Below, in pieces: positions 7,836 through 43,842 of a stretch of 43,842 bases of DNA (position 1 is the stretch's first letter; the number at the start of each line of letters is the position of its first letter). Origin of the DNA: an uncultured Clostridia bacterium (GTDB lineage Bacteria; Bacillota; Clostridia; Christensenellales; CAG-314); assembly GCA_947624235.1 (NCBI GenBank), contig CANQJK010000007.1, forward strand, positions 1 to 43,842, in the 5' to 3' direction. The position numbers and the translations under genes were made by a program. Under the pieces are notes generated by a model, which saw nothing but the letters and a program-made list of their open reading frames with translations, searched no databases and was not told the origin of the DNA.

Positions 7836-7843
7836 CCCCCCCC
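7836..7843. repeat. C8 homopolymer tract after the hydrolase stop
   Basis: Eight cytosines follow the hydrolase stop codon directly, then a run of seven A. It is one of six G/C homopolymers of eight or more bases in the window, all in intergenic DNA. Confidence 0.9.
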
Positions 7844-11477: not shown

Positions 11478-11975
11478 TTTTGGCAACGCGACAATATAAA
11501 TTTTTTCTGTGACGGCGCAACGCAACAAGCAATGGCGCCACGGGCGAAAGAAAGAGCGACAAATATTTTGCGTCCCCCCCCCAATGAGGCTGTAACGCTA
11601 ATAACTTGCAAAACAATATCGAAAGCGTTGTCGCGTCGATAACACAGACAATTAAATACGAATAATTATTCAAAAAAACGGTTTGAGATAGTTTTTTCAA
11701 ACCGTTTTTTGATGTCATTTTGCAAAAACGTTTAACGTGATGTCTCTTTGTTTACGTTGAGGCTTTTGCGTAATGTAAGTAACAAACCTTGGGGTAACGG
11801 CGTTTTGTTGCGTATCGCGCCCGTTGCCGAAATCGTTGGTCGTGGTGAACTTTTGTTGACAAATCGACGGCAGAAACGCTCCAAAATTCGTTCAAATCAC
11901 CGTGCTATCCCAAAAATGAACAATATGCCGTTGCGATTTTTATTTTTGAAAACTGAAAAATTTTTAAATAAAGTA
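11478..11975. other. Intergenic region with C9 tract and terminator
   Basis: About 500 bases without a supportable gene. It contains a C9 run (11574-11582), a terminator hairpin at 11675-11710, and a segment after it (TTTGCAAAAACGTTTAACG) resembling sequence after the terminator at 18013. No ribosome binding site or recognisable product accompanies the short open frame starting at 11748. Confidence 0.6.
11675..11710. terminator. Hairpin terminator downstream of the XRE gene
   Basis: AAAACGGTTTGA (11675-11686) pairs perfectly with TCAAACCGTTTT (11697-11708), followed by further T. It lies about 200 bases after the XRE stop and belongs to the same hairpin family as 8755 and 14211. Confidence 0.65.
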
Positions 11976-12005
11976 TTGACGTTTTTGAACGGGGGGGGGT
12001 ATAAT
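11976..12005 (+). promoter_or_regulatory. Promoter of the DUF975 gene with G9 tract in the spacer
   Basis: TTGACG (11976-11981), 18-base spacer, TATAAT (12000-12005). The last nine spacer bases (11991-11999) are all G. The block GAACGGGGGGGGGTATA is shared with the promoter of the giant gene at 29716. Loss of one G would bring the spacer to the optimal 17. Confidence 0.8.
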
Positions 12006-12037: not shown

Positions 12038-12643
12038 ATGATGAATGTTAGATGCAAAGAATTGCGCCAACGTGCTCGCGAACACCTCAAAGGTAATTAT
12101 TGGAAGTCGTTTGGCGCAAGTTTCGTGGGTAGCTTTATCGGTGGACTTGGCATGATATTTACCCTCGGACCTATGGAAGCGGGCGTCAATCGCTACTATG
12201 TGAAGCAACAACGCGAGGAAAACCCCGAATTCGGCGAAATTTTCAGCGGTTTCGAACGCTACGGCAGTACCTTGGGCGGATCGATTTTGAGAGCGTTGTA
12301 CATTTTCCTTTGGAACTTGATCCCCTTCGTCGGGCAAATCATCGGCGGATTGATGAAACCCTTTGCTTACAGTCAAATGTTCTACTTGATGTTGGACAAG
12401 GGCTACGGGGCAAACCAATCCATTACCGAAAGCAAAAAAATGATGAACGGTTACAAATGGAAGTTGTTCAAGTTGGACTTTTCCTTTATCGGTTGGATGT
12501 TCCTTTGCGTGCTGACTTTCGGCATTGGATTTTTGTTCCTTGCGCCCTACATGGACGCAACCATGGCTGAATTCTATGCGGAGTTGCTCAGTTGCCACGG
12601 CGAAGGCACAAGCGTAAGCGACGAATTCGTTGTTATCGAATAA
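12038..12643 (+). CDS. DUF975 family membrane protein
   Basis: A 201-residue integral membrane protein. The charged N-terminus (CKELRQRAREHLKGNYWKSF) is typical of DUF975. Hydrophobic segments follow near residues 28-45 (FVGSFIGGLGMIFTLGPM), 88-110 (LYIFLWNLIPFVGQIIGGL) and 148-170 (FIGWMFLCVLTFGIGFLFLAPYM). AAGGAGG (12021-12027) precedes the ATG by ten bases; a second ATG directly follows and could also serve. Function of the family is unknown. The gene stands alone, transcribed from the G9-spacer promoter, and ends at a hairpin terminator, so its expression may vary with the homopolymer. Confidence 0.88.
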   Translation: MMNVRCKELRQRAREHLKGNYWKSFGASFVGSFIGGLGMIFTLGPMEAGVNRYYVKQQREENPEFGEIFSGFERYGSTLGGSILRALYIFLWNLIPFVGQIIGGLMKPFAYSQMFYLMLDKGYGANQSITESKKMMNGYKWKLFKLDFSFIGWMFLCVLTFGIGFLFLAPYMDATMAEFYAELLSCHGEGTSVSDEFVVIE

Positions 12644-12753: not shown

Positions 12754-13359
12754 TTTTTTCAAAGTTTAAGCGATTTTATACTGCGAGAAGAAATTGCTTC
12801 CGCGCAGTCGTAAATGATTTTCACTGCTTGCGTCCGTTTGTTGCTATCGCTTTTTTGCTTTTTGTGCACAATGGCTTTTTTAATAAACTCCCGCACGAAT
12901 TTGTGGCAATACCGAAACGCCTACAATGAAAATTTTTTTAGAACCATGAAAATCTGTGGCGAATTTGCCGAAACGGGGAGGCGGGATAAGAAAATCCCCC
13001 AACGCGCGTTCGTCCCTCAACAAACGAGAAACCGTCTTCTGCCCCCCCCACAAGCGGTAGAGGCAAGCAATAAGCCAAAAAGATTTCGCTTTCCGAAAAA
13101 TTTCCGTAAAATTTCACGACTCCCCATCAAGTCTTTGGGACTTGGTGGGTGCCCCGAAGTTTGCTCTCGTTGCAGATTATTTTACAGGGGATACACTCGC
13201 TCCCACCGTTACAAGGTCGGGACATTTTTGTGCTGTCGGTTTCGGTGTAAATGTCATTCGTTCAAATTTTGCAACATAAATTCAACCCCATATATTCATT
13301 TTTACGCCAAACGTTCATGCAGAACCCCGAAAACTCGCCACGTAACAAGTGTTTTTTGT
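12754..13359. other. Intergenic region with C8 tract and a repeat-element copy
   Basis: About 600 bases with no supportable gene; a 189-codon open frame here lacks a ribosome binding site, is compositionally odd and runs through repeat sequence. There is a C8 run at 13042-13049. Positions 13169-13202 are a 34-base exact copy of 27806-27839, part of a dispersed palindromic repeat family. Confidence 0.6.
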
Positions 13360-28802: not shown

Positions 28803-29715
28803 GTGCTTGTTTGTGTTTCTGCCCATATTTTTGCTCTCGAAAGGGCAAAGCGCACAAGCGCAAAAGGGCTATTGCAAAGCAACAAAATCGGGGCAAAATG
28901 AGGACATGGGGTAGGTTTTTTTGATTTGCAATTGTCGTTTGGACGACATGCGGTGGAAAAAAACAGCCTTTTGTTACCAAGCGGACAGGTCGGGCGCCGA
29001 TCTGCACGCCTTTTGCAAAACTTGTGCTCCCGCGTGGCTTTTGCCCTCACAAGGCGCACGACAAAGCACCTTTAGTGAATATATGTAATATATTACATTG
29101 CTCAAACCTTATAAAACGGACGTTTTGGGGCGTCGTCGGCGCGACGTCTTTTGGCGTGAAACTTAAAACAAAGCGTAAAATAACGTGAAAACACAGTGTT
29201 CAATCACCCACTGCAAAGTAACGGGCAAATCGGCGTTTCAATGCTACGGTTCTGCGCCAAATGACGGGTTGGGGCGCTTTTGGCGAATATATATAATATA
29301 CTACAATGTCCCAAACCATATAAAAAACGGTTTTTTTCGACGTTGTTGCGCCAAGGATTCGACAAGGAGACTTAAAACAAAGCGTAAAATAACGTGAAAA
29401 CACAGCGTGCAGTCACCCACTGCAAAGTAACGGGCAAAACGGGGGCAAAACAGGTGGCGCAGGGCGGTCGCGACCTCTCGTTTTTGCTCAAACGGGGTAG
29501 GTTTTGCAACGGGGGGGGGCAAGCGGGGGAAGCCTTGTTTCGCATTGCCCGAGTCGTTGCTCCGCGCTGTGGAAAACAAGGCGGGGCAAAAATGAACAAA
29601 ATCGTTTTTGCGGACATGTGGGTGGAAAACTCGCTTGTGACAGCTAAAATTAGGTATAAAATGACTATTTTTTCAAAAAAATACCCCCATTTGCCAAAAA
29701 ATTTTCAAAAAACAC
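28803..29715. other. Long repeat-rich spacer before the giant gene
   Basis: Over 900 bases with no supportable gene. It contains a two-copy ~209-bp tandem repeat, a G9 run at 29511-29519, and short GC-rich hairpins (for example CGTCG/CGACG followed by TCTTTT near 29131-29150). Short open frames here cross the repeats and lack ribosome binding sites. Confidence 0.65.
29074..29490. repeat. Tandem direct repeat of about 209 bp
   Basis: A 36-base block starting ACTTAAAACAAAGCG is identical at 29161-29196 and 29370-29405. A following block TCACCCACTGCAAAGTAACG is also exact. Upstream, GAATATATGTAATATATTAC (from 29075) matches GAATATATATAATATACTAC (from 29284), followed in both by TCAAACC/CCAAACC and ATAAAAACGG-like sequence. 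Two units, period 209. Copy boundaries at the right are diffuse. Confidence 0.8.
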
Positions 29716-29744
29716 TTGACATGTCGAACGGGGGGGGGTATATT
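29716..29744 (+). promoter_or_regulatory. Promoter of the giant MBG gene with G9 tract in the spacer
   Basis: TTGACA (29716-29721), 17-base spacer, TATATT (29739-29744). Spacer positions 29730-29738 are nine G, abutting the -10 box. The preceding AAAAATTTT-rich stretch resembles that upstream of the DUF975 promoter. The predicted start near 29751 gives a leader of about 170 bases. Confidence 0.8.
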
Positions 29745-29887: not shown

Positions 29888-29921
29888 TGCAACAAATTCT
29901 TGTTTTTTGGGAGAACTGAAA

Positions 29922-32900
29922 ATGAGAGAAACAAACAAAAAGAAAAACACACGTTCGTATCAACGTAATGTGCAAACAAATAAGCGTGGGGGTGCGGCAG
30001 CGATAACTCCGCAGAGGCGCAAACAACTTGTCACTTTTGCTGCGCTGACGATGGTCGTGGCATTACTTTTGGCAAGCCTTATCGGAGCTATGACTTCCGT
30101 CGTGAGCCCCGATTTCGCTTTGGCTGCCACTAATTCGCCCTATGCGGAAACGGCTCACGTTGGTGAGGGCATTGGTGAAGAAAACGGTGAACAATACAAG
30201 TATAGTGGCGTCAACTCCATGGTTGGCACGCTCATCAGTTGGAAAAATTATACCTCGCACACCGAGTCGTTGGGAAATTGGTTTATAGACGATACAGGCT
30301 TTATCGTTTGGGGATCAAGCGGCGGTTCTCGTAACCCAACACTCACATATGCAGTACCTCAAAACAACTCTTTGTCCAGTATCAAGTTAATCAAAGCAAA
30401 CAATGGTGCAAACGGGCTCAGTGCGTCATCAACAATCAAGCCCGCAAAAGCAGGCTCCGAAAACGTCACTTTGTCTAATTGGCATAGTCAAGACAATGAG
30501 TTGGGTGCATATTTCACAATCGGACACGCAGGTGCGTCTCCTTCGGAAATGGCTGCCGACTGGAATCGCGCTATACTTGCAGCTTCGCACTATTCTAAAA
30601 GCGGATTGCTTCAAAATGAAGAATTCGGTTCACTCAATCCGGCAACTGCGGAGCAAGACAACAAAAACCTCTGGACAGATACTTGGTCTGACAATTTTGC
30701 TGTTAACGATCAACTTAAAGGGTTTGGTGCTCAACAAAACGCCACAATTGCCAATAATACGTATGTTTATATCAAATTGATGGAGGACTGGGTTGCTCCT
30801 ATTGTCAACGATGCCCAAACACGGTATGTTGAAGAGGCGGCAACGGCGGGTGCGTTTAATTTCGGATCAAACGACAAAGCAAATTCGGTTCAAAAACCTG
30901 GTACTAAATACGACTTCCCCGAAAACGAAGGTGCAAGTTCAACAAGTGGCCCGAGATTCTCGTTGGGCACGAGTTTTTCCGGTAAAAACTCCATTTCGAA
31001 TATTAACCATGGATCAATGACATACAATCAATTTACGATTGGTTTGTCAGAAGAGCCGTTTTCTTTTGGTCGACTTTCAATTCCTGATAACTGTTATGTA
31101 ATTCTTGACCTTAATGGTCACACATTGGATAGAAATCTTGATAGCTTTGATCTTGCTGAGAATCAAGATATTCACCTCAATGTTATATGTCCGTCAATAT
31201 TTCTCGTTGGCAACGCTGCTCGTCTCGAGGTATTCGATAGTTCTGCAACTAAAGACAACCCTGCGGGCGAAGGAAAAATTACCGGCGGAGTAGGCATAAA
31301 TGGTGACGGCATTATTGAAGGATGTCCTCCCGACTATGTTACGAGAGCGGGCAAACCCGCATATGACGTTAACGCTTGGGGCAATAGTCTAAAGGGCGGT
31401 GGTATAAAACTTGCACCGCGCGCCGAATTTACGTTGCACTCGGGTACAATATGCGGTAACTCTGCAATCTACGGTGGCGCAATTTACGGCACGGGAAATA
31501 ACTATATTTATATTTACGATGGTGTCATGACCGGTAACACAGCGGCCAAAGGAGGAGCCACCTATCTTTCGCAAGCAAGTTACATGGTTCTTAATATGTT
31601 TGGTGGCTCAATTTCGGGTAATGGTACTGATTGGACCAGATTCTCACACTATATTCATGTTTTTGAGAAAAACCAAGTGACCGATTTCGGCATAGCCGTT
31701 CCGTCCGAGTGGCAACAAGCAGGTGCTGGTAATGGTCAACGCCTTTTTGAATTAAACAAACAAGCGTTCATCAATGTAATTGCATATGCCAGAGGCACTT
31801 CCGGCAAGACGGGACACAATGTAAAAAGTGGAGAAGTAAACTCAGAAGGTGGTGGCGTCTGCGTATTTGAAAATGCATTTTTCAACATGTATGGCGGTTC
31901 TATATTCGGTAACTATAGTTTGGAATATGCCGGAGGTGTTAATGTAAACAAAAACAGCTTTTTCAAACTTTACGGCGGTGAAATCACAAATAACGTTGTT
32001 ACGGGCGAAGAAAGACTGATTACTGGCGCACAGATTGTAGAACCGGGAGCGAAAGAGCCATCAACACCCACTGCCAATGTTGGCGGCGGTGGCGTAAATA
32101 TGTTTCAGGATAGCGCAGGAATTTACCTAAACGGTCCCGGCAAAATAACGGATAACTACACGTGCAACAACAAATTTGACCGTTCGGTTCCTTTTACTGT
32201 TGAATCAATTGCGGAGTATATTTCCACAAATAAGGAAATTCTGGCAGATTCCAACCTCTATTTGTCACTTACTACTCAATCACACGATCAAACCCCATTT
32301 AGCGCGTCGCAGCACCTTTACCCCGAAATCAAGGTACAAGGACCTTTGTACAAAAACGCGCAATGCGTTGCGCAAATTTCCATTACTCCTGCGGCCGGTA
32401 TTGAAGCCGGCGGCTACATCATGCGTCAGTTTTATCCGTTTGGTTGGCAAGACAATCCCAACGAGCAGGTAAAGGGAAATGACGGCACAACAAACGGTCC
32501 GCGTCCGTTAATAAGCAATGGCGTGGACGAATCTTCTCACGCCAAAAACCAATTCGGCGAAGACAACACAACGGCATTTAACCTACGTAAGTACCTCACA
32601 ACGGGCGCGACGTCCGGTTATGTTGATGGTTTCTTGTTTACCGACGGCGGAACTTCAATTGTTGCCGGTACCGGCAGTGACGAAGGTTGGTACATGGCTC
32701 TCGGTACAAAGCAACAGAGCAACCTGCCCGCCGAATGGCAGTACTACGACAGCACAATAGATTTGAGCACAAACTCGCCCAAAGGTTGGACTAAAGCGGA
32801 AACAAGCGCAGGAACAGGTACCGGGTTTACGCTTGTCTACAACGGAAAGGACAGAAAGTACGATATTCGTGTTTTAATTGACCGTGATCAACTCACCCAA

Positions 32901-35900
32901 GACTCGAGTGGCGGCTTGAGCGGTAAATATTATCTTTATTACGACTATTATACAATAATAGATCCGATTACGGGAAAAGAAACAGTCGATGGATCCAATC
33001 AGGTAATAAAGTACTACTACTACGAAAACAAAGATGCGGTTAGTCGTGGAGATTACACCAATATCCTTCATATTACTTCGGGCTACGACAGCGATTATAA
33101 TGAGATAGAACACAAGAACGTAATTTACGCATCCGAACGGTACGACCGTCTTGGCTATCGCTTTACAATAAGGGACGATATCAAAAAATTGGTCGGCGGC
33201 AGTGGTGTGGCAACGCCATTCAATGAAACAGATAAGTCCATTGCCAACCCCAACTACGCAACGATGAAGCTTGACCGCGCAACTTTGATGATTTCACAGT
33301 TGCAACTTGCGGCTATTGAGCGTTTTTACGACGGAACAGATGATTTTTACATTCCGACAGATACCATCCGTGAAGGCGTCCTTACAGGTAAAGCTCCCGA
33401 TGACCAAGAAAACCTCGTTTTGAGATTTTCTGCGGAGAAAAACGGGTATGTGGCCGGTCAACTGAAAAGCCCCGATGTCGGTATCAACTCTGTTTCGCTC
33501 GGCATTATCATTGACGAAATCGGACGCCAAGAGAATCACGAAGACCACGACGGCAACACCTTCCCCGACAAGTGCTTGCTTGCCAACTACATGTTGTACG
33601 ACCTTAACACGGGCACTATGTATCCGGCAGAAGACAGAGGGGAAATGTCCGTAACGTTGCAAGTTACCGTTACGCCCAAGCCGATAACTATCAAGTTTGA
33701 TCCTCAAACGGTAGAATACGGTAGCGTCCCCGTATTTGGCGACGAGTGGAGCACTGTGGCAGGACAGCCGAGCGTATCTAATGCCTACAAAGATAATATC
33801 AACGATTTGTTTAACCCCGCGGAGCAAAAGTACCCCGAGGATGAGGGGTTTGACCCGAACGCTTTGGGCACAGATGGCAAATTTGCCGCTGTCGATATCA
33901 CGGCGCACACACACAACCCCGAAAATAAAGCATTGACGGTGTACGAGATACTCGGATGGAACTTTACGTCCTTGTTTGCGGAAAACTCCAGCATTGGTTC
34001 TTACGCTTACAACTTCTTGTATAGCAACAACAACTATGCGGTAACATATAGTTTCAACGGAACACTAACATCGGCTATTCCTTCGGGAACCACAGTAAAC
34101 GGCGTTATCTTGAACGACCTGTTCACCGTAACTCCGCGCAACATACAGTTGACGGTGCCGAACCAAACGTCGATCTACGGCGAGGCGCTTGCCGAATTGC
34201 AAATAACAGAGTACAAGCATTTGTCCGCAAAGGGCAGTGATTGGACGGAAGATGAGGAGACTGCTGTGATCAGTGGCGACAGCCTCAACACCAACTTGCG
34301 CATTGTTGCCACAAACGACGATTACAACACGGGCAACCCCAACGGCGCGTTGATGGTGAACACGTATGCTATTGCCCTCACGGCTGACGGCGTAAATCTC
34401 AACCCCAACTACAATGTGGTGCAGATAAAGGACGCCGAAGGCAAAATCAAGCCGATGGAAGACCGATTTAACGTCGCCACCTACACGGTTACGGTGCGCA
34501 AAATCACCATTTCACCTGTCAACTTAACGCAGGTGTACGGCGACAGTCCTGCCTCTTGGAACTACAAGGTAACCGCGACAGACGTGGCCGGCAACAACAT
34601 CACGGGAGATGTGATCCTCAACGCCGACAAAGACAAACTGATAAAGTTTACGACCAACGGCGCGTCAACGGATACTATCAGTTACAGTCGTGCCGATAGC
34701 ACCAACAACAACGCCGGTAGTTATCAAATTACGCTTACATACTATCCTGAGAGAACCGGCACGGCTACAAACGGCAAAACGCAGATGAGTAGCAACTACG
34801 AAGTGCAGGTCGTCAATGACGACGATGGCGACGACTCACACTGTACGGAGCGCCAAATGGTCGGCGTTTATAAAATTGATAAACGTATTGTAAACATCAA
34901 TATAGTAAGTTCTCAATCGAGCGTATATGGAGAGAATTTCAATCTCCAATCGACCAACACTTATTGGCAAGCCATCACCACCACAAATGGCGACAGAAGT
35001 AAAGGAATAATTATATCCGGAGACGAAGGTATATTTAATGACGGTATAACCATTTCCTTTGCGGAAGAGGGTTGGGGCAACACAGCCTCCACTCAGTTGC
35101 TTGCGGGCAACAAGTATCTGCCCGTCGGTCAATACGCCATCAAAGGCACAGCAAGCGCGGATATAAACAAAAACTACGAAGTGGTGTTCACTGGAGAGTG
35201 GAACTCCTCTATGAACGCAACATATCCGCACGAAGAGGGCAACAACATCTATGCCTACTATTCTATTACAAAGCGCCCGATAATCATTGCCCCGTCCACT
35301 TTGAGCAGTGAATACGGCGACGATCTGGTGGACTACACCAAGATCGTTTTGGACGGCTTTGTTCCCCAAACATATAAGAGTGTTCCCATCTGGACGGCAA
35401 GTTGCACGTTTGACTCCGTCGTTAGGGATGGCATGGATGAGATCAAGATCAAACCTGACGCTTTCAAGCTGATGAAAGACGGCAGTCACTCGCTTACATC
35501 TACGGATAACGTAAGCTCGGCTTACATCATCCAAATGAGCGCCTACGCATCTTTGGTTGAAGATAACCCCAACTACAACATTTCGTTTACCAACGGGCAG
35601 TACAGCATCACTGCACGTCAGGTCAAGTTGAGTTCGCAAAACGGCCACACGATTTACGGTTTGCAAAAAGGCGACGAGGTTGTTGGCTTTACAGCAAAAC
35701 GCCTTAGAACAACAGATATATTTGGTGAAGAATTAACCAAAACCGCCCCGTTTGTGAGCGCGGAAGGTACGCGTTTCAGTGGCACCATATCCAAAGATAG
35801 TAGTGGCAGTGTTACCGTCACGATTGAAGACGGCGTTACCGTTGTTGTTACCATTGTGGGTTACACGGGCAACCGCACTAACCAATATCTCAATGCAGGC

Positions 35901-38900
35901 ACGTACACCGTCATCTACAACTACTCGGGTAGCTCCAACTACAACGTTACTACCGAGGGTAATGGCAACTACACGGTACTCAAACGCGCAATAACGATAG
36001 AGTTGAAAGCCCAAACTGCTTCCTACACGGGTAGCGAACCGCTGGTAAATCAAACCAAATGGAGCGCGATCGCTTTCGATACTGAATATTCGGAATACGC
36101 CTCTTACGCTGAACTTGTGTCTGAATTGAAAGAACAATCAGACTTCATTCTTGCAAGCGACAACGTTTCGTTTGCCACCAAACTGACAATTTCGAAGGTC
36201 AGTGGCGAAAATGCGGGAGAATACGATCTTGCCGCAAATTGCACCGACAACAACTATAACATCAAGTGGGTAAAAGCCAAGTTTACCATTACCGCTATCA
36301 CGTTGAAGGCTTATTTTGCCGGATACGAATCATTAACAGGCGAACCGTCGTGGCCGAGTTTTGTTTACGACAGAAACTCTCACGAACTGTCCGTCGTTTT
36401 GGCATACATTTCGGGCAGTGGCGTTTTGCCGTCACTGGGTGATAAAAACGGTTACACGGTCAGCAATGAATATACCCCCGTAAAAGCGGGAATTGACAGT
36501 CACGCATCATTTACAAACGCAGGTCAATACACCGTCACAGTCGATCTTGTAGGCGACGCAAAAACCAACTACAACTTTGGCGAGGGAACGACGCAAGTAG
36601 TGCTTCAATTTACAATAAAGCGTTCCGTGCAAAAAATTCTCGGTATTGATGACGTCACATTCAATCGTAGCGTTCAGCTACCCATCATCACATTTAATAG
36701 CGACAATGGTGGCGCCACTCTTGTCGAAAACGAGTGGGGCGTGTACTACGTTGCAACAAATGCGTTCCAAACGTTCGATATGCCGAGCGCAACGACAACG
36801 TTCTTTGGCGTACCCAGCTATGCGGATGTCTACACCGCGTATGTGATGTTGCTTGGCAACGCTCAAAACAACTTTGAAATAAAGTACGCAAACGAGTCGG
36901 ATAGAACGCTTTCGGGTGACAAAGAGGTAAAGGACACCGCGAGCAACTCTGTTGACGTGATAACGCACATCGACAGTGCAGACGATTCCTCGCCCACAAC
37001 AAAAATTCTGACAGGCGACGAACTCACCTTTGGCGCGGGTTGTTTGTGGCAAGGAACATACACCATCAACAGATTGAAGATAAGCGTTCGCCAAGTTACC
37101 AATACGGTGGTGTACGACTACGCGCCCAATCAAGGTAGCGACGTCGACACAACAGCCAACAACGGCAGACACCTCAACACCGCGTTGGAAATTGACTTCT
37201 TCAACGTGGGTGGCGCCGAGGCGGAAGTAGATGACGTTCCGTATCAAATTTACATCCTCAATGACGATGGCTCCATATACGCCGTGTTCCACTACACGTT
37301 GCACACGTGGGAGGGCAACTATGCCCACCTTGGACCGTGCACCGCCGAAAACCACAGTTTGTCAGGAAATCACAAACACATGCACTTCACCTACGAAGCA
37401 AGCGGTATCATCAAATGGGGCTGGGACAACAAAAACGTTGTGGCAGTGGGCGGCAAAACCGTTGGAGCTTGCATACAAGAACTGCGCGACGCATTTACAA
37501 ACGTAGGAAAGCACTCTTTGGTGCTTGTGCTGGATAACGCCAACTACATCATCGACGGCACGGACAATGCCTTTACCGAAAATGTTACACAGCCCGATTG
37601 GTACACAGGCTCCGAAAAAATAAGCCAAAACTTCACTTTCGAAATAACCAAGGCAACCATCAATCCCTTCTTGTTTGACAGCGCCGATGGCAAAAAGGCG
37701 CCTCTCAGTGGCGACAACTTGCAATTTACTTACGACGGAAAGTCGCACAAGCTGTGGGTGTGGTTTACCAACAACGACAACAACACGTCCGTTTTGCCCG
37801 ATAGCGAAACGCCCGTAAGCGACAAGGGCGGTCTTACTGCCACCAACTACTATGCTCAATTTGAGTACTCCGGTTGGAGTGGCAGTGCTACAACAAGCGA
37901 TGAAGTTAAAACAAAATCCGACGATTACAAGAACGTCGGCACCTACACGGTGAACATCGCCCTCAAAGAGGACGGCAACTTCCAATTTGTCGGCGGAGCA
38001 ACCTCTATGACGTTGACCTACAACATCAACGCCAAAGAGTTGGTGTTGACAGACAAACAACTCACATTTGAGTTTTATGCCGACTCTACGGGCAGTGACA
38101 AGAATGTCACGCTTGACCGCGAAAACGCAAGTATCATAGGTGTTTACAGATACATTGCGTCCAACTGGGAGCCTATCGAAAACGTATTGTACGGTGGCAA
38201 GGCGCTCACAAGAGTTGCAGACCTCAAAGGCGACTACTCATTGGCATACAGGGACAACCTCAACGCCTCCGACGAAAAAACCACGGCAACCGTGACCATC
38301 ACATTTGCCAACAACTACAATGGCGCGGTAACGCTTAAATTTACCATTTCGCCCAAGTCTCTCGGTACGGCTAAATATAACGACGAAACGATCGACGGCA
38401 ACGACGAACAAATTTCCGAAAGCCAGTTGACAGAGGCGAGCAAGAGTTTCGTCTACACGGGCATTCCTTTGTCCTATGCGACGAGCTTCAACTATACGCC
38501 GAGTGAAGATCGCGTTGTTGCTATGCGTCAGGGTAGCGACTACGACATAGAAGTGTATTTCAAGGGCGCTGATGGCAGTTGGAGTGATGTCAAAGACGTT
38601 ACTAATGCGGGTACATATCGCCTTGTTGCAACAGGTAGAGTCAACTATGTTGATACCTACGTTGTGGAGTTCACCGTGGGCAAAGCCACCGTTGAACTGG
38701 TAACGCCTGCCCACAAGACCTTTAACCGCGAGGAACAAAATGCGGATATCGCATTTACCAACGTTAACGACGGTAACAGCGTCGTTCCGTCGAAAGAGAA
38801 AAAAGAGTATGACGCACCTGTTTACTCGATCGTTGAGGGCACCAACGCCAAGTTGGGTAGTGCAAAGCTCCCGTTCAACGCAGGTACATACAATGTCTCT

Positions 38901-41900
38901 GTGACGCTCACCTCGTCCAACTTCCAGTTTGAGGGTGGTAGCAACACGGGCACGGTACAATTTGTCATCGATCCGTTGGAAGTATATGCAGGACAAGTGT
39001 TGACAGACGCCTACTACGACGGCACCTCTCATTTCTGGGGCGACCTTGTAGGCGCACCGACGTCGAGATACGGCGGTAACGGCGCTTGGACATTCAACTT
39101 CCGTTCGCTCACAGGCACCGATGTTTCGGGCATGGGCTACACAATAACCTTCGATAAGGTTGTCGTCACGTTAGGTGGCTATGCAGACGGCGCATTGCTT
39201 GACGACAGCTTCACGTTGGACGGCAAAGAGAGCGATTGGGACGCAGTCAAAGCGCTCCGTCTGTTTACTAACGTCAACTGGGCCGAAGGCGTCAAACCCT
39301 ACAAATTCACATTGGGTATTGCCGACGGCAACTACAAACTTGCCGACTCTCAACCGACCGAATTCGAATTTACCGTCGTTCCGTCGGTCATAGTCGTTGA
39401 CAGTATTCCGAGCGAAACCTACAACGCACTTCCTCACACGCCCAAAGTGACCTTCTCACTGCTCAACACAAGCACTTTGACGCATGAACAAGTCAACGAT
39501 GAGTTGGAAGGGCAGTTCACGCTCAAATACAGGGTAGGCACTAGTGACGCATTCGGCGACAATGCTCCCGTGGACGTTAACAGATATCAGGTAGAAGTAA
39601 CCGTCAACAACCACAACTACGCATTTGACCGTAGCGGTGCGTCCGTCAACGCGCAAAACTTCTTCGATATCAACCCGTTGAATATCGACAGTGAAGATAT
39701 CGACAAGCTTGTGTTCACTTTGCAAGACAAGGTGTACACAGGTACCGCCGTCGAATCGAAGATAATCAAAGTTAAAGTTACCATTGGCGAAAAGACCATT
39801 ACCTTCAAACAGGGCGCAACCGACGAAAACGAAGTTGAGTTGAACGAGAACCTGTTTAAGATAACAGGTTACAACAACAATACTCACGCAGGCGAAGCCA
39901 ACGCAACCATACAGGCGGGTGGCAACTTTACGGGCAGTATAACGGTGAAAAACGCATTTACAATTGCACCGCGTAACATTATCGTCCGTATCGAGAACCG
40001 CACGTCCGTTTATGGAGAAAACCTCACTCTGAGCGATGTTGAGACCGTCGGCTGGTCGCTCGTCGATCCGTCGCAATATGCCACTTACAAAGATAAGTGC
40101 CCCGATTTCGTTTGGAACTGGGAGGAAGATTGGAGCGACGTATCTGGCAATCGCAAAAACTATATCGTTTACAGAACAGATAGCCTTGGTATTTCTCTCG
40201 ATATCAATGGCGGTAAATACAACGCGAAAAAGGACGGCAAGTTGCTCGTCGGTACTTATTCGATAACCGACCACAGCATTTCGCTTGCTTCGACATCCGA
40301 CTACAACATCACCTTTGTGGGCGATTGGGCAGGAGAGGACGACTACAACGGCAAAGCGGGTACCTACACCGTAACACAGCGCGAGATCGTTCTTACTATC
40401 GGCGACAAGTCGTTTGAATACGGCGACTACGATAAAGACGCTATAACAAATGGCAAGATGCTCGACTTGAACGAATTGCTCACGGACAGCTACAACAACC
40501 TTGGTTATACAGGTGTTGCAATTCTCTCCACCGACAAGGATACATTGTTCAAAGGCATCACCCTTTCCATTGTTCACAACGACAATTGGAGCAAGGGCAC
40601 AAAACCGTGGCTCAATGCAGGTAGCTATGCTATCATTGCCAAATTCGATAATTCCGAAACATCAGCCACTTGCTACATCGACGGCAAAGCGGGCGAAAGC
40701 TACCGTGTGGGCGATCAATACAAGATAACGCTTGCAGGTAACTTTGACGGCACAGGCAATTACGGTTCGGACAGCGGTTTCGATATCGACGCCGACACCC
40801 CGTACAGCGGACACGCAGGTGTCTTTACGGTGACGTCGCGCCAGATCACTATCACGGTAAATCACATTCAGCACGAGTACAACGGCGAAGAACCTACCAC
40901 GGACGAAATGACGTGGCAGTTGAAAGCGGGCAGTAACCTTGCCGAGGGCGACGAGAAATCCATTCTCGGCGTCAAATTGTCAAAAGCCTCGGGCGTGAAC
41001 GTTGGTTTCTACTCCGTCACAGGCGCTTATACGACAACCGGTAGCTACATCGTCACCTTTGAGGAATACGAAAACGCCGTGGAGATCACCAAACGTCAAA
41101 TAATCGTGACGTTGAACAAGCAAACTTCCGTCTACGGCGAAGTAGAGGCTGTCGGTAACGTTGAGGGCGACAACTGGACTGCAAAATTAAGTCCCGATAG
41201 TAGCTACAAGGATGGCGACGCTATCGTCACGCCGTCAGGAACGAAGACACGCGACGATCTTCAAATCAAAATCACAAAAGAACTGGGAGCGAATGTCGGC
41301 TTCTACGACCTTGAACCCTCCTATACCAACAACAACTACGCAGTGACCTTTGAGGGAACGGCGAAAAACTACGAGATCATAAAGCGTCACATCATCATCA
41401 AAATTAGCGACAAACAGTCCTACTACGGCGTAGCGCTCGACATCAGCGACGTGATCGACCACGTTTGGAGCGTGGTGGAGGACGAGTCCGCCTATACAAG
41501 CGAAACGTTGGAGAAGAACTGGACGGGAACAGCTCACTACAACAAAGAGAACCTCGGCGTAAAACTCAAAATCGCTTCGGCGGATTACACGGACGCAAAC
41601 AGCGTGCTCAAAGTTAAGGCTGGCGGTTACGCAATTATTGTGGACGGTAGCGAGCTTAACCCCAACTACGAGTTCTACTTCAAGGGCGCGTGGTCGGGCG
41701 AAGGCGAGTACGATGCCGACCATCAATATGCAAGTCACGCAGGCATTTACACAGTCAAGAAGCGCGAGATCACCATCACGCCCATTGACGCAAACAGTAT
41801 CTACGGCGAAAAGTCAGCGTCCGCTATCAACGAAGAGTTGAGCGGGCAAAGCGCTTGGACCGCAACTTCTGTCTACGCAGGCGACGCAATTTTGTCCGCC

Positions 41901-43842
41901 GACCTCGAAGCCCTTGCAAAGTGCATAAGCTTTGCGGTGCAGTACGTCGACACGTTGGATATCGCCACAAGCGGTTACTTGCACGCCAAAACTTACAAAG
42001 TGGTGGGCACCTTTGCTGAACACGACAATGACGTTTGCAACAACTACTCTGTCAAGTTTAGCGGTAGTTGGGCAGGCGGAACAGACGGCACCTACACCGT
42101 CAACAAGAGAGCTGTCACGCTTACGATCCTTCCGGACGTGATGACCTACGAATACGACGGAGAGGAACACATCGACATACTTGACTTTGGCGAAGAGTAC
42201 GTTGGCAAACAGTGGACTTTGAAAGACGTGTTTGGCACGGTCGCATTAGCCACAAAGTTGCCCGATAGCGATAGTAAATATGTGGACGACACGCTTGAAA
42301 CGCTCGGCATCAATCTCACCAAGGACGCGGGCGCAACAGTTGCTCCGTATTCCGTATTGGCAAGCGCTACAAACCGCGACTACGATGTCACTTTCGTAGG
42401 CACATCCAACTGCGTACATATCACTCCGCGCAAGGTAGTTGTCACTATCAACGACCAATACGCCATTTACGGCGAAAGTGAGGACATCGACAAAGAGCGT
42501 GGCGACGAACACGGCTGGACAATGAGTCTTGCCGAGGACAGCGTATATTACGGCAAGGGCATTGACGCTCTTGTCGGAGACGTGAGCACGCTCAACATCA
42601 ATCTGTTCAAAGATTTGGGCAGAGATGTCGGCACATACGCAATTTACATAACGTATAGCAACAGCAACTACGGCTTCACGCTCAAAGGATCCTGGACGGG
42701 CAGTGGCTCTTACAGCGACGGTTCGCTTTACAGGGAGCGTGCAGGCACATACAACATTGTCAAACGCAAGATCGAGGTGGAAATTCTCGGTCAAAGTAGC
42801 GTATATGGCGAAAAGCCCAACCTTTCCACTGCACGCAACACGGCTTGGCGACTTAAAGAAGGCGCATACACACCCGATTACGGCGAATTAAACGACAAAC
42901 TTGTTGGTAGACTCAATCCCAACACAATTCTCAGTAGCGACTTGTTGAATATCCAATTTAACACGTCGGCAGACAACGCAACACACGTTGGCGAGTACGG
43001 CAAGATCACCGCATCGTGCAAAAACGACAACTACGAAGTTACGTTCTTGTGGGATAGCGGTTATTGGACGGAAAACGATGGCAAGATCGTCACGTCTACA
43101 AAACTCTCTCCCGACGGAGAAGGCGTTGTTACGGCGGAAAAAGCCGTCAAAATAGAAAAACGTATCATTTCTATCAACCTGTACAGCATAACGCTCAAAT
43201 ACGGCGAATTGCCCGATGACTCAAAGCTCGTAGATGTAGGCGGTCACCAAGAGTTGGTGTTGGATAACACCCAAGGCACACACTGGCAGGTTCGCAGTGC
43301 TATCAACGGCACAGGCAGTGCGCTTGTAAACGGCGACACGATTTCGCTTGTGATTGGCATTTGGATGTACAAGGACGGCGAGGGTAGCCCCTTCAAAGCA
43401 GGCGTATATGTGGCTGACGCACAGTACTGCTATGTTTACGCACGCGTAATGACCACAGAAGATGTTAGTAGTGGTGCTTTCAAAGGTCGCGACGCGACAA
43501 CCGACAACTACGAAGTTGTGGTAATGGGCGACACTCAATTTGCAGGAGTTCGTGATCCCAGTGGCGAATACACCATTGATGTTGGCGAAGAAGAATACAT
43601 AAGTCAAGCCGCAGCCTTGAATTTGCAAAAACGCGTCGTTACCTTCACTCCCAACAGCACGTCGGTAGAATACGGCACGCCTTATGCGGAAAAATCGATC
43701 GAGTGGACGGCAGGCGGAGACGGTTACTACGAAGCCGACCGCGAGTTGTTCTTGTCCCTCGGCGAGGTCAGGTTCAAGACAGAACCGCCCAAGAGCACTT
43801 CGGGCTTCATCAAGGTGGGCGTATATACGCTTGAATTGAAAC
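29922..43842 (+). CDS. Giant exported MBG-repeat protein (partial, open at right edge)
   Basis: At least 4,640 residues with no stop in frame to the end of the window. ATG 29922 has GGGAG eight bases upstream. Residues 1-68 are a long signal peptide: a basic N-terminus, a hydrophobic core around 38-58 and a probable cleavage after FALA (68). Residues about 480-745 show right-handed beta-helix repeats (GGSIFGN, GGEITNN, GKITDN, GGAIYG). From about residue 1,245 onward there are MBG/YDG-like repeats of roughly 85-155 residues. Each opens with a strand plus [I/V/E]YG[E/D] and often ends AGxYTV with an NNYxVTF core; at least 17 such YG motifs are visible (for example near 33711, 34171, 34532, 34921, 40006, 41131, 42801, 43668). 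It is probably a surface-exposed adhesin or stalk. The anchor (LPXTG, SLH or other) lies beyond the window. Confidence 0.88.
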   Translation, partial: MRETNKKKNTRSYQRNVQTNKRGGAAAITPQRRKQLVTFAALTMVVALLLASLIGAMTSVVSPDFALAATNSPYAETAHVGEGIGEENGEQYKYSGVNSMVGTLISWKNYTSHTESLGNWFIDDTGFIVWGSSGGSRNPTLTYAVPQNNSLSSIKLIKANNGANGLSASSTIKPAKAGSENVTLSNWHSQDNELGAYFTIGHAGASPSEMAADWNRAILAASHYSKSGLLQNEEFGSLNPATAEQDNKNLWTDTWSDNFAVNDQLKGFGAQQNATIANNTYVYIKLMEDWVAPIVNDAQTRYVEEAATAGAFNFGSNDKANSVQKPGTKYDFPENEGASSTSGPRFSLGTSFSGKNSISNINHGSMTYNQFTIGLSEEPFSFGRLSIPDNCYVILDLNGHTLDRNLDSFDLAENQDIHLNVICPSIFLVGNAARLEVFDSSATKDNPAGEGKITGGVGINGDGIIEGCPPDYVTRAGKPAYDVNAWGNSLKGGGIKLAPRAEFTLHSGTICGNSAIYGGAIYGTGNNYIYIYDGVMTGNTAAKGGATYLSQASYMVLNMFGGSISGNGTDWTRFSHYIHVFEKNQVTDFGIAVPSEWQQAGAGNGQRLFELNKQAFINVIAYARGTSGKTGHNVKSGEVNSEGGGVCVFENAFFNMYGGSIFGNYSLEYAGGVNVNKNSFFKLYGGEITNNVVTGEERLITGAQIVEPGAKEPSTPTANVGGGGVNMFQDSAGIYLNGPGKITDNYTCNNKFDRSVPFTVESIAEYISTNKEILADSNLYLSLTTQSHDQTPFSASQHLYPEIKVQGPLYKNAQCVAQISITPAAGIEAGGYIMRQFYPFGWQDNPNEQVKGNDGTTNGPRPLISNGVDESSHAKNQFGEDNTTAFNLRKYLTTGATSGYVDGFLFTDGGTSIVAGTGSDEGWYMALGTKQQSNLPAEWQYYDSTIDLSTNSPKGWTKAETSAGTGTGFTLVYNGKDRKYDIRVLIDRDQLTQDSSGGLSGKYYLYYDYYTIIDPITGKETVDGSNQVIKYYYYENKDAVSRGDYTNILHITSGYDSDYNEIEHKNVIYASERYDRLGYRFTIRDDIKKLVGGSGVATPFNETDKSIANPNYATMKLDRATLMISQLQLAAIERFYDGTDDFYIPTDTIREGVLTGKAPDDQENLVLRFSAEKNGYVAGQLKSPDVGINSVSLGIIIDEIGRQENHEDHDGNTFPDKCLLANYMLYDLNTGTMYPAEDRGEMSVTLQVTVTPKPITIKFDPQTVEYGSVPVFGDEWSTVAGQPSVSNAYKDNINDLFNPAEQKYPEDEGFDPNALGTDGKFAAVDITAHTHNPENKALTVYEILGWNFTSLFAENSSIGSYAYNFLYSNNNYAVTYSFNGTLTSAIPSGTTVNGVILNDLFTVTPRNIQLTVPNQTSIYGEALAELQITEYKHLSAKGSDWTEDEETAVISGDSLNTNLRIVATNDDYNTGNPNGALMVNTYAIALTADGVNLNPNYNVVQIKDAEGKIKPMEDRFNVATYTVTVRKITISPVNLTQVYGDSPASWNYKVTATDVAGNNITGDVILNADKDKLIKFTTNGASTDTISYSRADSTNNNAGSYQITLTYYPERTGTATNGKTQMSSNYEVQVVNDDDGDDSHCTERQMVGVYKIDKRIVNINIVSSQSSVYGENFNLQSTNTYWQAITTTNGDRSKGIIISGDEGIFNDGITISFAEEGWGNTASTQLLAGNKYLPVGQYAIKGTASADINKNYEVVFTGEWNSSMNATYPHEEGNNIYAYYSITKRPIIIAPSTLSSEYGDDLVDYTKIVLDGFVPQTYKSVPIWTASCTFDSVVRDGMDEIKIKPDAFKLMKDGSHSLTSTDNVSSAYIIQMSAYASLVEDNPNYNISFTNGQYSITARQVKLSSQNGHTIYGLQKGDEVVGFTAKRLRTTDIFGEELTKTAPFVSAEGTRFSGTISKDSSGSVTVTIEDGVTVVVTIVGYTGNRTNQYLNAGTYTVIYNYSGSSNYNVTTEGNGNYTVLKRAITIELKAQTASYTGSEPLVNQTKWSAIAFDTEYSEYASYAELVSELKEQSDFILASDNVSFATKLTISKVSGENAGEYDLAANCTDNNYNIKWVKAKFTITAITLKAYFAGYESLTGEPSWPSFVYDRNSHELSVVLAYISGSGVLPSLGDKNGYTVSNEYTPVKAGIDSHASFTNAGQYTVTVDLVGDAKTNYNFGEGTTQVVLQFTIKRSVQKILGIDDVTFNRSVQLPIITFNSDNGGATLVENEWGVYYVATNAFQTFDMPSATTTFFGVPSYADVYTAYVMLLGNAQNNFEIKYANESDRTLSGDKEVKDTASNSVDVITHIDSADDSSPTTKILTGDELTFGAGCLWQGTYTINRLKISVRQVTNTVVYDYAPNQGSDVDTTANNGRHLNTALEIDFFNVGGAEAEVDDVPYQIYILNDDGSIYAVFHYTLHTWEGNYAHLGPCTAENHSLSGNHKHMHFTYEASGIIKWGWDNKNVVAVGGKTVGACIQELRDAFTNVGKHSLVLVLDNANYIIDGTDNAFTENVTQPDWYTGSEKISQNFTFEITKATINPFLFDSADGKKAPLSGDNLQFTYDGKSHKLWVWFTNNDNNTSVLPDSETPVSDKGGLTATNYYAQFEYSGWSGSATTSDEVKTKSDDYKNVGTYTVNIALKEDGNFQFVGGATSMTLTYNINAKELVLTDKQLTFEFYADSTGSDKNVTLDRENASIIGVYRYIASNWEPIENVLYGGKALTRVADLKGDYSLAYRDNLNASDEKTTATVTITFANNYNGAVTLKFTISPKSLGTAKYNDETIDGNDEQISESQLTEASKSFVYTGIPLSYATSFNYTPSEDRVVAMRQGSDYDIEVYFKGADGSWSDVKDVTNAGTYRLVATGRVNYVDTYVVEFTVGKATVELVTPAHKTFNREEQNADIAFTNVNDGNSVVPSKEKKEYDAPVYSIVEGTNAKLGSAKLPFNAGTYNVSVTLTSSNFQFEGGSNTGTVQFVIDPLEVYAGQVLTDAYYDGTSHFWGDLVGAPTSRYGGNGAWTFNFRSLTGTDVSGMGYTITFDKVVVTLGGYADGALLDDSFTLDGKESDWDAVKALRLFTNVNWAEGVKPYKFTLGIADGNYKLADSQPTEFEFTVVPSVIVVDSIPSETYNALPHTPKVTFSLLNTSTLTHEQVNDELEGQFTLKYRVGTSDAFGDNAPVDVNRYQVEVTVNNHNYAFDRSGASVNAQNFFDINPLNIDSEDIDKLVFTLQDKVYTGTAVESKIIKVKVTIGEKTITFKQGATDENEVELNENLFKITGYNNNTHAGEANATIQAGGNFTGSITVKNAFTIAPRNIIVRIENRTSVYGENLTLSDVETVGWSLVDPSQYATYKDKCPDFVWNWEEDWSDVSGNRKNYIVYRTDSLGISLDINGGKYNAKKDGKLLVGTYSITDHSISLASTSDYNITFVGDWAGEDDYNGKAGTYTVTQREIVLTIGDKSFEYGDYDKDAITNGKMLDLNELLTDSYNNLGYTGVAILSTDKDTLFKGITLSIVHNDNWSKGTKPWLNAGSYAIIAKFDNSETSATCYIDGKAGESYRVGDQYKITLAGNFDGTGNYGSDSGFDIDADTPYSGHAGVFTVTSRQITITVNHIQHEYNGEEPTTDEMTWQLKAGSNLAEGDEKSILGVKLSKASGVNVGFYSVTGAYTTTGSYIVTFEEYENAVEITKRQIIVTLNKQTSVYGEVEAVGNVEGDNWTAKLSPDSSYKDGDAIVTPSGTKTRDDLQIKITKELGANVGFYDLEPSYTNNNYAVTFEGTAKNYEIIKRHIIIKISDKQSYYGVALDISDVIDHVWSVVEDESAYTSETLEKNWTGTAHYNKENLGVKLKIASADYTDANSVLKVKAGGYAIIVDGSELNPNYEFYFKGAWSGEGEYDADHQYASHAGIYTVKKREITITPIDANSIYGEKSASAINEELSGQSAWTATSVYAGDAILSADLEALAKCISFAVQYVDTLDIATSGYLHAKTYKVVGTFAEHDNDVCNNYSVKFSGSWAGGTDGTYTVNKRAVTLTILPDVMTYEYDGEEHIDILDFGEEYVGKQWTLKDVFGTVALATKLPDSDSKYVDDTLETLGINLTKDAGATVAPYSVLASATNRDYDVTFVGTSNCVHITPRKVVVTINDQYAIYGESEDIDKERGDEHGWTMSLAEDSVYYGKGIDALVGDVSTLNINLFKDLGRDVGTYAIYITYSNSNYGFTLKGSWTGSGSYSDGSLYRERAGTYNIVKRKIEVEILGQSSVYGEKPNLSTARNTAWRLKEGAYTPDYGELNDKLVGRLNPNTILSSDLLNIQFNTSADNATHVGEYGKITASCKNDNYEVTFLWDSGYWTENDGKIVTSTKLSPDGEGVVTAEKAVKIEKRIISINLYSITLKYGELPDDSKLVDVGGHQELVLDNTQGTHWQVRSAINGTGSALVNGDTISLVIGIWMYKDGEGSPFKAGVYVADAQYCYVYARVMTTEDVSSGAFKGRDATTDNYEVVVMGDTQFAGVRDPSGEYTIDVGEEEYISQAAALNLQKRVVTFTPNSTSVEYGTPYAEKSIEWTAGGDGYYEADRELFLSLGEVRFKTEPPKSTSGFIKVGVYTLELK

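Follow-up and report, generated by a model that had tools for sequence, protein, structure and literature searches.

A G9 tract in the promoter spacer of a giant exported-protein gene from an uncultured Clostridia bacterium represents a recurrent and probably phase-variable promoter class

The gene for a giant exported repeat protein in an uncultured Clostridia bacterium is preceded by a promoter whose spacer ends in nine guanines. This promoter belongs to a recurrent type with the layout TTGACA, about 9 nt, G9 or G10, and a TATAAT-like box. The G9 tract is probably a phase-variable contingency element within a sigma-A-type promoter spacer, and the set of such promoters would then form a stochastic surface phasome. 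The DNA analysed here, called the window below, is the whole stretch of 43,842 nucleotides (contig CANQJK010000007.1).

The promoter of the giant gene lies on the forward strand. Its -35 box, TTGACA, occupies positions 29716-29721, the 17-nt spacer positions 29722-29738 and the -10 box, TATATT, positions 29739-29744. The G9 tract (29730-29738) makes up the last nine bases of the spacer and adjoins the -10 box. These elements had been proposed in a first-pass annotation of the window, and the two boxes, the tract, their coordinates and the spacer length all agree exactly with the sequence. The site is the top sigma-70-like site between 28700 and 30000, with 11 of 12 matches. The ATG of the giant gene at 29922 is located 177 nt downstream of the -10 box, and a ribosome-binding-like GGGAGAA (29909-29915, forward strand) lies in a surrounding sequence, TTTTTTGGGAGAAC, that is kept in the orthologues. 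The reading frame (29922-43841, forward strand) is open at the contig end, codes for at least 4640 amino acids, and has orthologues in two other genomes (G021 and G019). The earlier description of its product as a giant exported protein is borne out by an N-terminus in which a charged part is followed by a hydrophobic export-like segment, by the length of at least 4640 codons, and by YGE/MBG-like repeat motifs that can be seen by eye. The protein matches no Pfam family at E ≤ 0.01, nucleotide tandem arrays were sought in its gene and not found, and the Rfam and tRNA scans gave no matches. On the 5' side of the gene, at 29050-29440, two stretches that resemble each other, both about 200 bp long, lie in tandem (TATAT.TAATATA.TACA ... 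AAGCGTAAAATAACGTGAAAACACAG).

Long G-tracts form a class apart from the background of G-runs, and their length exceeds the chance expectation. The window contains 118 G/C runs of four, 15 of five, none of six or seven, two of eight and four of nine, and G8 occurs in it 10 times as against 0.44 times expected from shuffles. A similar gap is found outside the promoter sites in family loci totalling 527 kb, which have 185 runs of five, eight of six, none of seven, two of eight, seven of nine and one of 11. A G9 placed at random would have TTGAC at the appropriate distance, and TAnnnT immediately following, with a probability of 7e-5. Such boxes flank two of the six long tracts in the window and five of the 20 in the genome, and for the window alone the placement probability is about 7e-8. 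The second of the two promoters in the window reads TTGACG - N9 - G9 - TATAAT (11976-12005, forward strand; tract at 11991-11999; spacer of 18 nt), and on its 3' side lies the gene for a DUF975 membrane protein of 201 amino acids (12038-12643, forward strand; PF06161, E 1.8e-31). Further G8-G9 tracts, at 7836-7843, 11574-11582 and 13042-13049 on the reverse strand and at 29511-29519 on the forward strand, have no -35 and -10 boxes around them; because of the gap in run length at six to seven, these four are assigned to the same long-tract class. Elsewhere in the genome, at three loci (L022, L024 and L025, on C30, C36 and C46), G9 tracts apparently lie inside the reading frames of repeat proteins as Gly runs, and these are possible translational contingency loci.

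The site at 29716-29744 had been pictured as a single locus. The site itself stands, but it is not a one-off, since pattern searches give at least six G-tract promoters in the genome (1.66 Mb in 94 contigs), including that at 11976-12005. The sites are found on C7 (two), C9, C33 and C53, and also on C4, where the tract is in the middle of the spacer. Among their products are the giant protein, the DUF975 protein, a PD-(D/E)XK nuclease-like protein and two lipoproteins. A search of 41 genomes of the family gave 125 pattern matches spread over 24 genomes, as against one match for the reversed pattern and one for a pattern in which C replaces G. Among 118 distinct sites the tract is G9 in 66 and G10 in 36, so that 102 have nine or ten guanines. 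In an additional 37 sites the tract lies within the spacer without contact to the -10 box; these are in part short-spacer matches that were read anew. The short-spacer matches (8-13 nt) were dropped as a separate class, many of them being mid-spacer tracts with the true -10 box further downstream.

The spacers of the 118 sites have peaks at 18 nt (45 sites) and 19 nt (22 sites), whereas for ordinary TTGACA-TATAAT promoters in this genus 17 nt is the commonest length (44 of 60), a shift with P = 2e-9. It had been supposed that a spacer of 17 nt represents the ON state and that 16 or 18 nt would weaken the promoter. This supposition is not favoured, as 17 nt is the peak of the ordinary promoters, the G-tract class peaks at 18 and 19 nt, and the two orthologues of the giant gene have spacers of 18 and 19 nt.

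As far as their predicted products tell, the genes controlled by G-tract promoters are mostly of the surface type, and in the relatives they code chiefly for lipoproteins and large repeat proteins. Of 110 products, 69 were called exported (47 lipoproteins, 18 with other signal peptides and four probable) and 14 cytosolic, as against seven exported and 42 cytosolic among 60 products of ordinary promoters (P = 3.7e-11 for export); the calls come from a simple classifier using N-terminal sequence rules, not from SignalP, and the two sets are imperfectly matched in design, as three genomes supplied the controls and many supplied the G-tract promoters. A domain scan of 58 products, nearly all of them called exported, gave 15 with Listeria-Bacteroides repeats, 14 with BspA-type LRRs (LRR_5), 11 with divergent InlB repeats and six with Big_2. 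Further targets are an EAL/HD-domain protein, a class II fructose-bisphosphate aldolase and a TIM-barrel protein.

The promoter type is not confined to this family. A strict form of the pattern was found in at least 119 stretches among 84,980 species genomes, and the matches listed include Clostridia, Bacilli, Selenomonadaceae, Streptobacillus, Streptococcus, Spirochaetes, Saccharibacteria and others. Hydrogenoanaerobacterium saccharovorans is a carrier that can be cultured. In fifty of the matching genomes the number of sites ranges from 1 to 23, and the reversed pattern has no match. The pattern occurs in 46 of 248 genomes from the window's own order and in three of 299 from across the phylum, the genome of the window being one of the three. 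The products in other taxa are again mostly exported. The strict pattern has no match in the IMG/VR viral contigs, and therefore no phage link is seen.

Comparison of homologous promoters shows that the tract length is variable, this variation being one between lineages (species and paralogues) only. The promoters of the giant gene in three species have TTGACA and TATATT in common and differ in the spacer, which contains G9 (17 nt), G10 (19 nt) or no tract (18 nt). The promoter without a tract is that of G021, in which both boxes are kept. Other homologue groups contain G8/G9 and G9/G10 pairs, and in some orthologues G9 is constant. In five Streptococcus genomes (L106, L124, L380-L384) a promoter with a G9 or G10 spacer tract and nearly identical flanks precedes the gene for a PspA-like surface protein, and the sole difference between the -35 and -10 boxes is G10 in one genome versus G9 in four. 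In one MAG, two overlapping contig ends have identical available flanks (21 nt upstream and 59 nt downstream) with G12 in one and G11 in the other; they may represent two alleles or an effect of assembly, and may hint at a reversible change of length. Pairs of promoters in G012 and G074 were considered as alleles of one locus and rejected; their upstream DNA differs, and they are probably paralogues. G021 has four near-identical copies of a promoter, all with G10. Three of its loci (L248, L254 and L256) have copies of promoter and signal peptide that are identical over 240-273 bp past the tract, and because of this identity the promoter and the N-terminus look like a duplicated cassette.

By combining these observations, the following process can be proposed. 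Slippage at the G tract would alter the length of the spacer, and the altered spacer length would change the promoter strength, as in porA. The promoters of this kind in the genome, at least six, would together constitute a multi-gene stochastic surface phasome. Phase variation had been suggested from the giant-gene promoter, and it gains strong comparative support from the recurrent layout, from the marked enrichment of exported products, and from tract lengths that differ at orthologous or near-identical promoters. For the switching itself, we infer slippage as its cause, along with the rate and reversibility of slippage, a mixture of tract lengths in the population and an effect on transcription. 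A lost mismatch-repair system was rejected as the cause, as MutS1 is above the cut-off in 23 of 25 genomes of the genus; because MutS1 is present, slippage would be partly repaired. MutS N-terminal-domain matches were also observed within open frames of 3000-4100 codons (G007:C1:14775, G023:C1:91067 and G023:C18:5154).

Several observations speak against a switch or in favour of a static structural element. In such an element, the coding-strand G-tract would give the spacer a special geometry (A-form-like and shorter per base) or would bind a factor, thus setting how strong the promoter is or how it responds to supercoiling, and the length would be held by selection. The tract lengths lie within a narrow range, mostly 9-10, the four copies in G021 are equal in length, and several orthologues share G9. 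The strand preference, 125 matches with G versus one with C, is strict and exceeds what slippage alone demands, and the optimum spacing is moved to 18-19 nt. A few of the targets are housekeeping enzymes, such as the aldolase, and these also count against switching. A static element is nevertheless unlikely, because the distance from the tract to the -10 box is not fixed, the giant-gene promoter of G021 keeps both boxes without any tract, promoters that are otherwise nearly identical differ by one base in length, and contingency loci typically show such a preference for surface genes. A chance or sequencing-made poly-G in a promoter-like position is very improbable: the assembly is fragmented, several tract promoters of relatives lie near contig ends, and the G11/G12 overlap could reflect assembly, but hundreds of promoters recur with reversed and C-tract controls near zero, the pattern is present in records named as cultured strains (e.g. 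Streptobacillus notomytis AHL 370-1 and Streptococcus), and neither the placement in the window nor the functional bias of the targets fits an artefact.

As the preference for coding-strand G is not accounted for by the phase-variable reading, the tract might itself take part in spacer geometry. A wider proposal, which we put forward tentatively, is that the G-tract cassette might be a genome-wide system of stochastic surface display in many gut Clostridia and Bacilli and in distant phyla, in which the coding-strand guanines contribute to the promoter geometry, the best spacing is 18-19 nt, and single-base slips tune many surface genes independently.

Homopolymer phase variation has been studied mostly in host-adapted pathogens. 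In Neisseria meningitidis, porA has a poly-G between the -35 and -10 boxes, and its transcript level tracks the G count (PMC3899988). In both cases a surface-protein gene has a poly-G in its promoter spacer; the present promoters differ in their number, at least six per genome, and their shared layout, in belonging to an uncultured Clostridia MAG lineage, in a tract that usually adjoins the -10 box, and in that their switching and its effect on expression are predicted. Bifidobacterium breve, a gut commensal, has G-tract length variants that control surface structures, but its studied pilus switches are intragenic and act by frameshift in the coding sequence, G-tracts in promoter spacers being mentioned without detail (PMC9187656). 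Gut bacteria also have invertible promoters (Jiang et al. 2019, cited in PMC11868660), which likewise exert stochastic promoter-level control of surface genes, but by DNA inversion between repeats and not by homopolymer length. A contingency locus formed by a promoter-spacer homopolymer is of a known kind; what is new, as far as the open-access literature shows, is the lineage that carries it, how many loci a genome has and the standard form in which they are laid out. No earlier report of the class was found in that literature, and earlier ones may exist outside it.

With their common layout the promoters can be searched for by a simple pattern, and the relation of spacer length to expression can be tested as a rule in many lineages. 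The strict preference for the coding strand, together with the spacing of 18-19 nt, poses the question of how RNA polymerase deals with spacers that contain a G-tract. The placement of the tracts mostly before surface genes suggests that their carriers randomly vary the proteins that they display. If the promoters switch, an uncultured gut Clostridia genome would possess several such surface switches, or up to about a dozen, each independent of the others; they would escape a comparison of gene content and yet could be counted in existing metagenomic reads.
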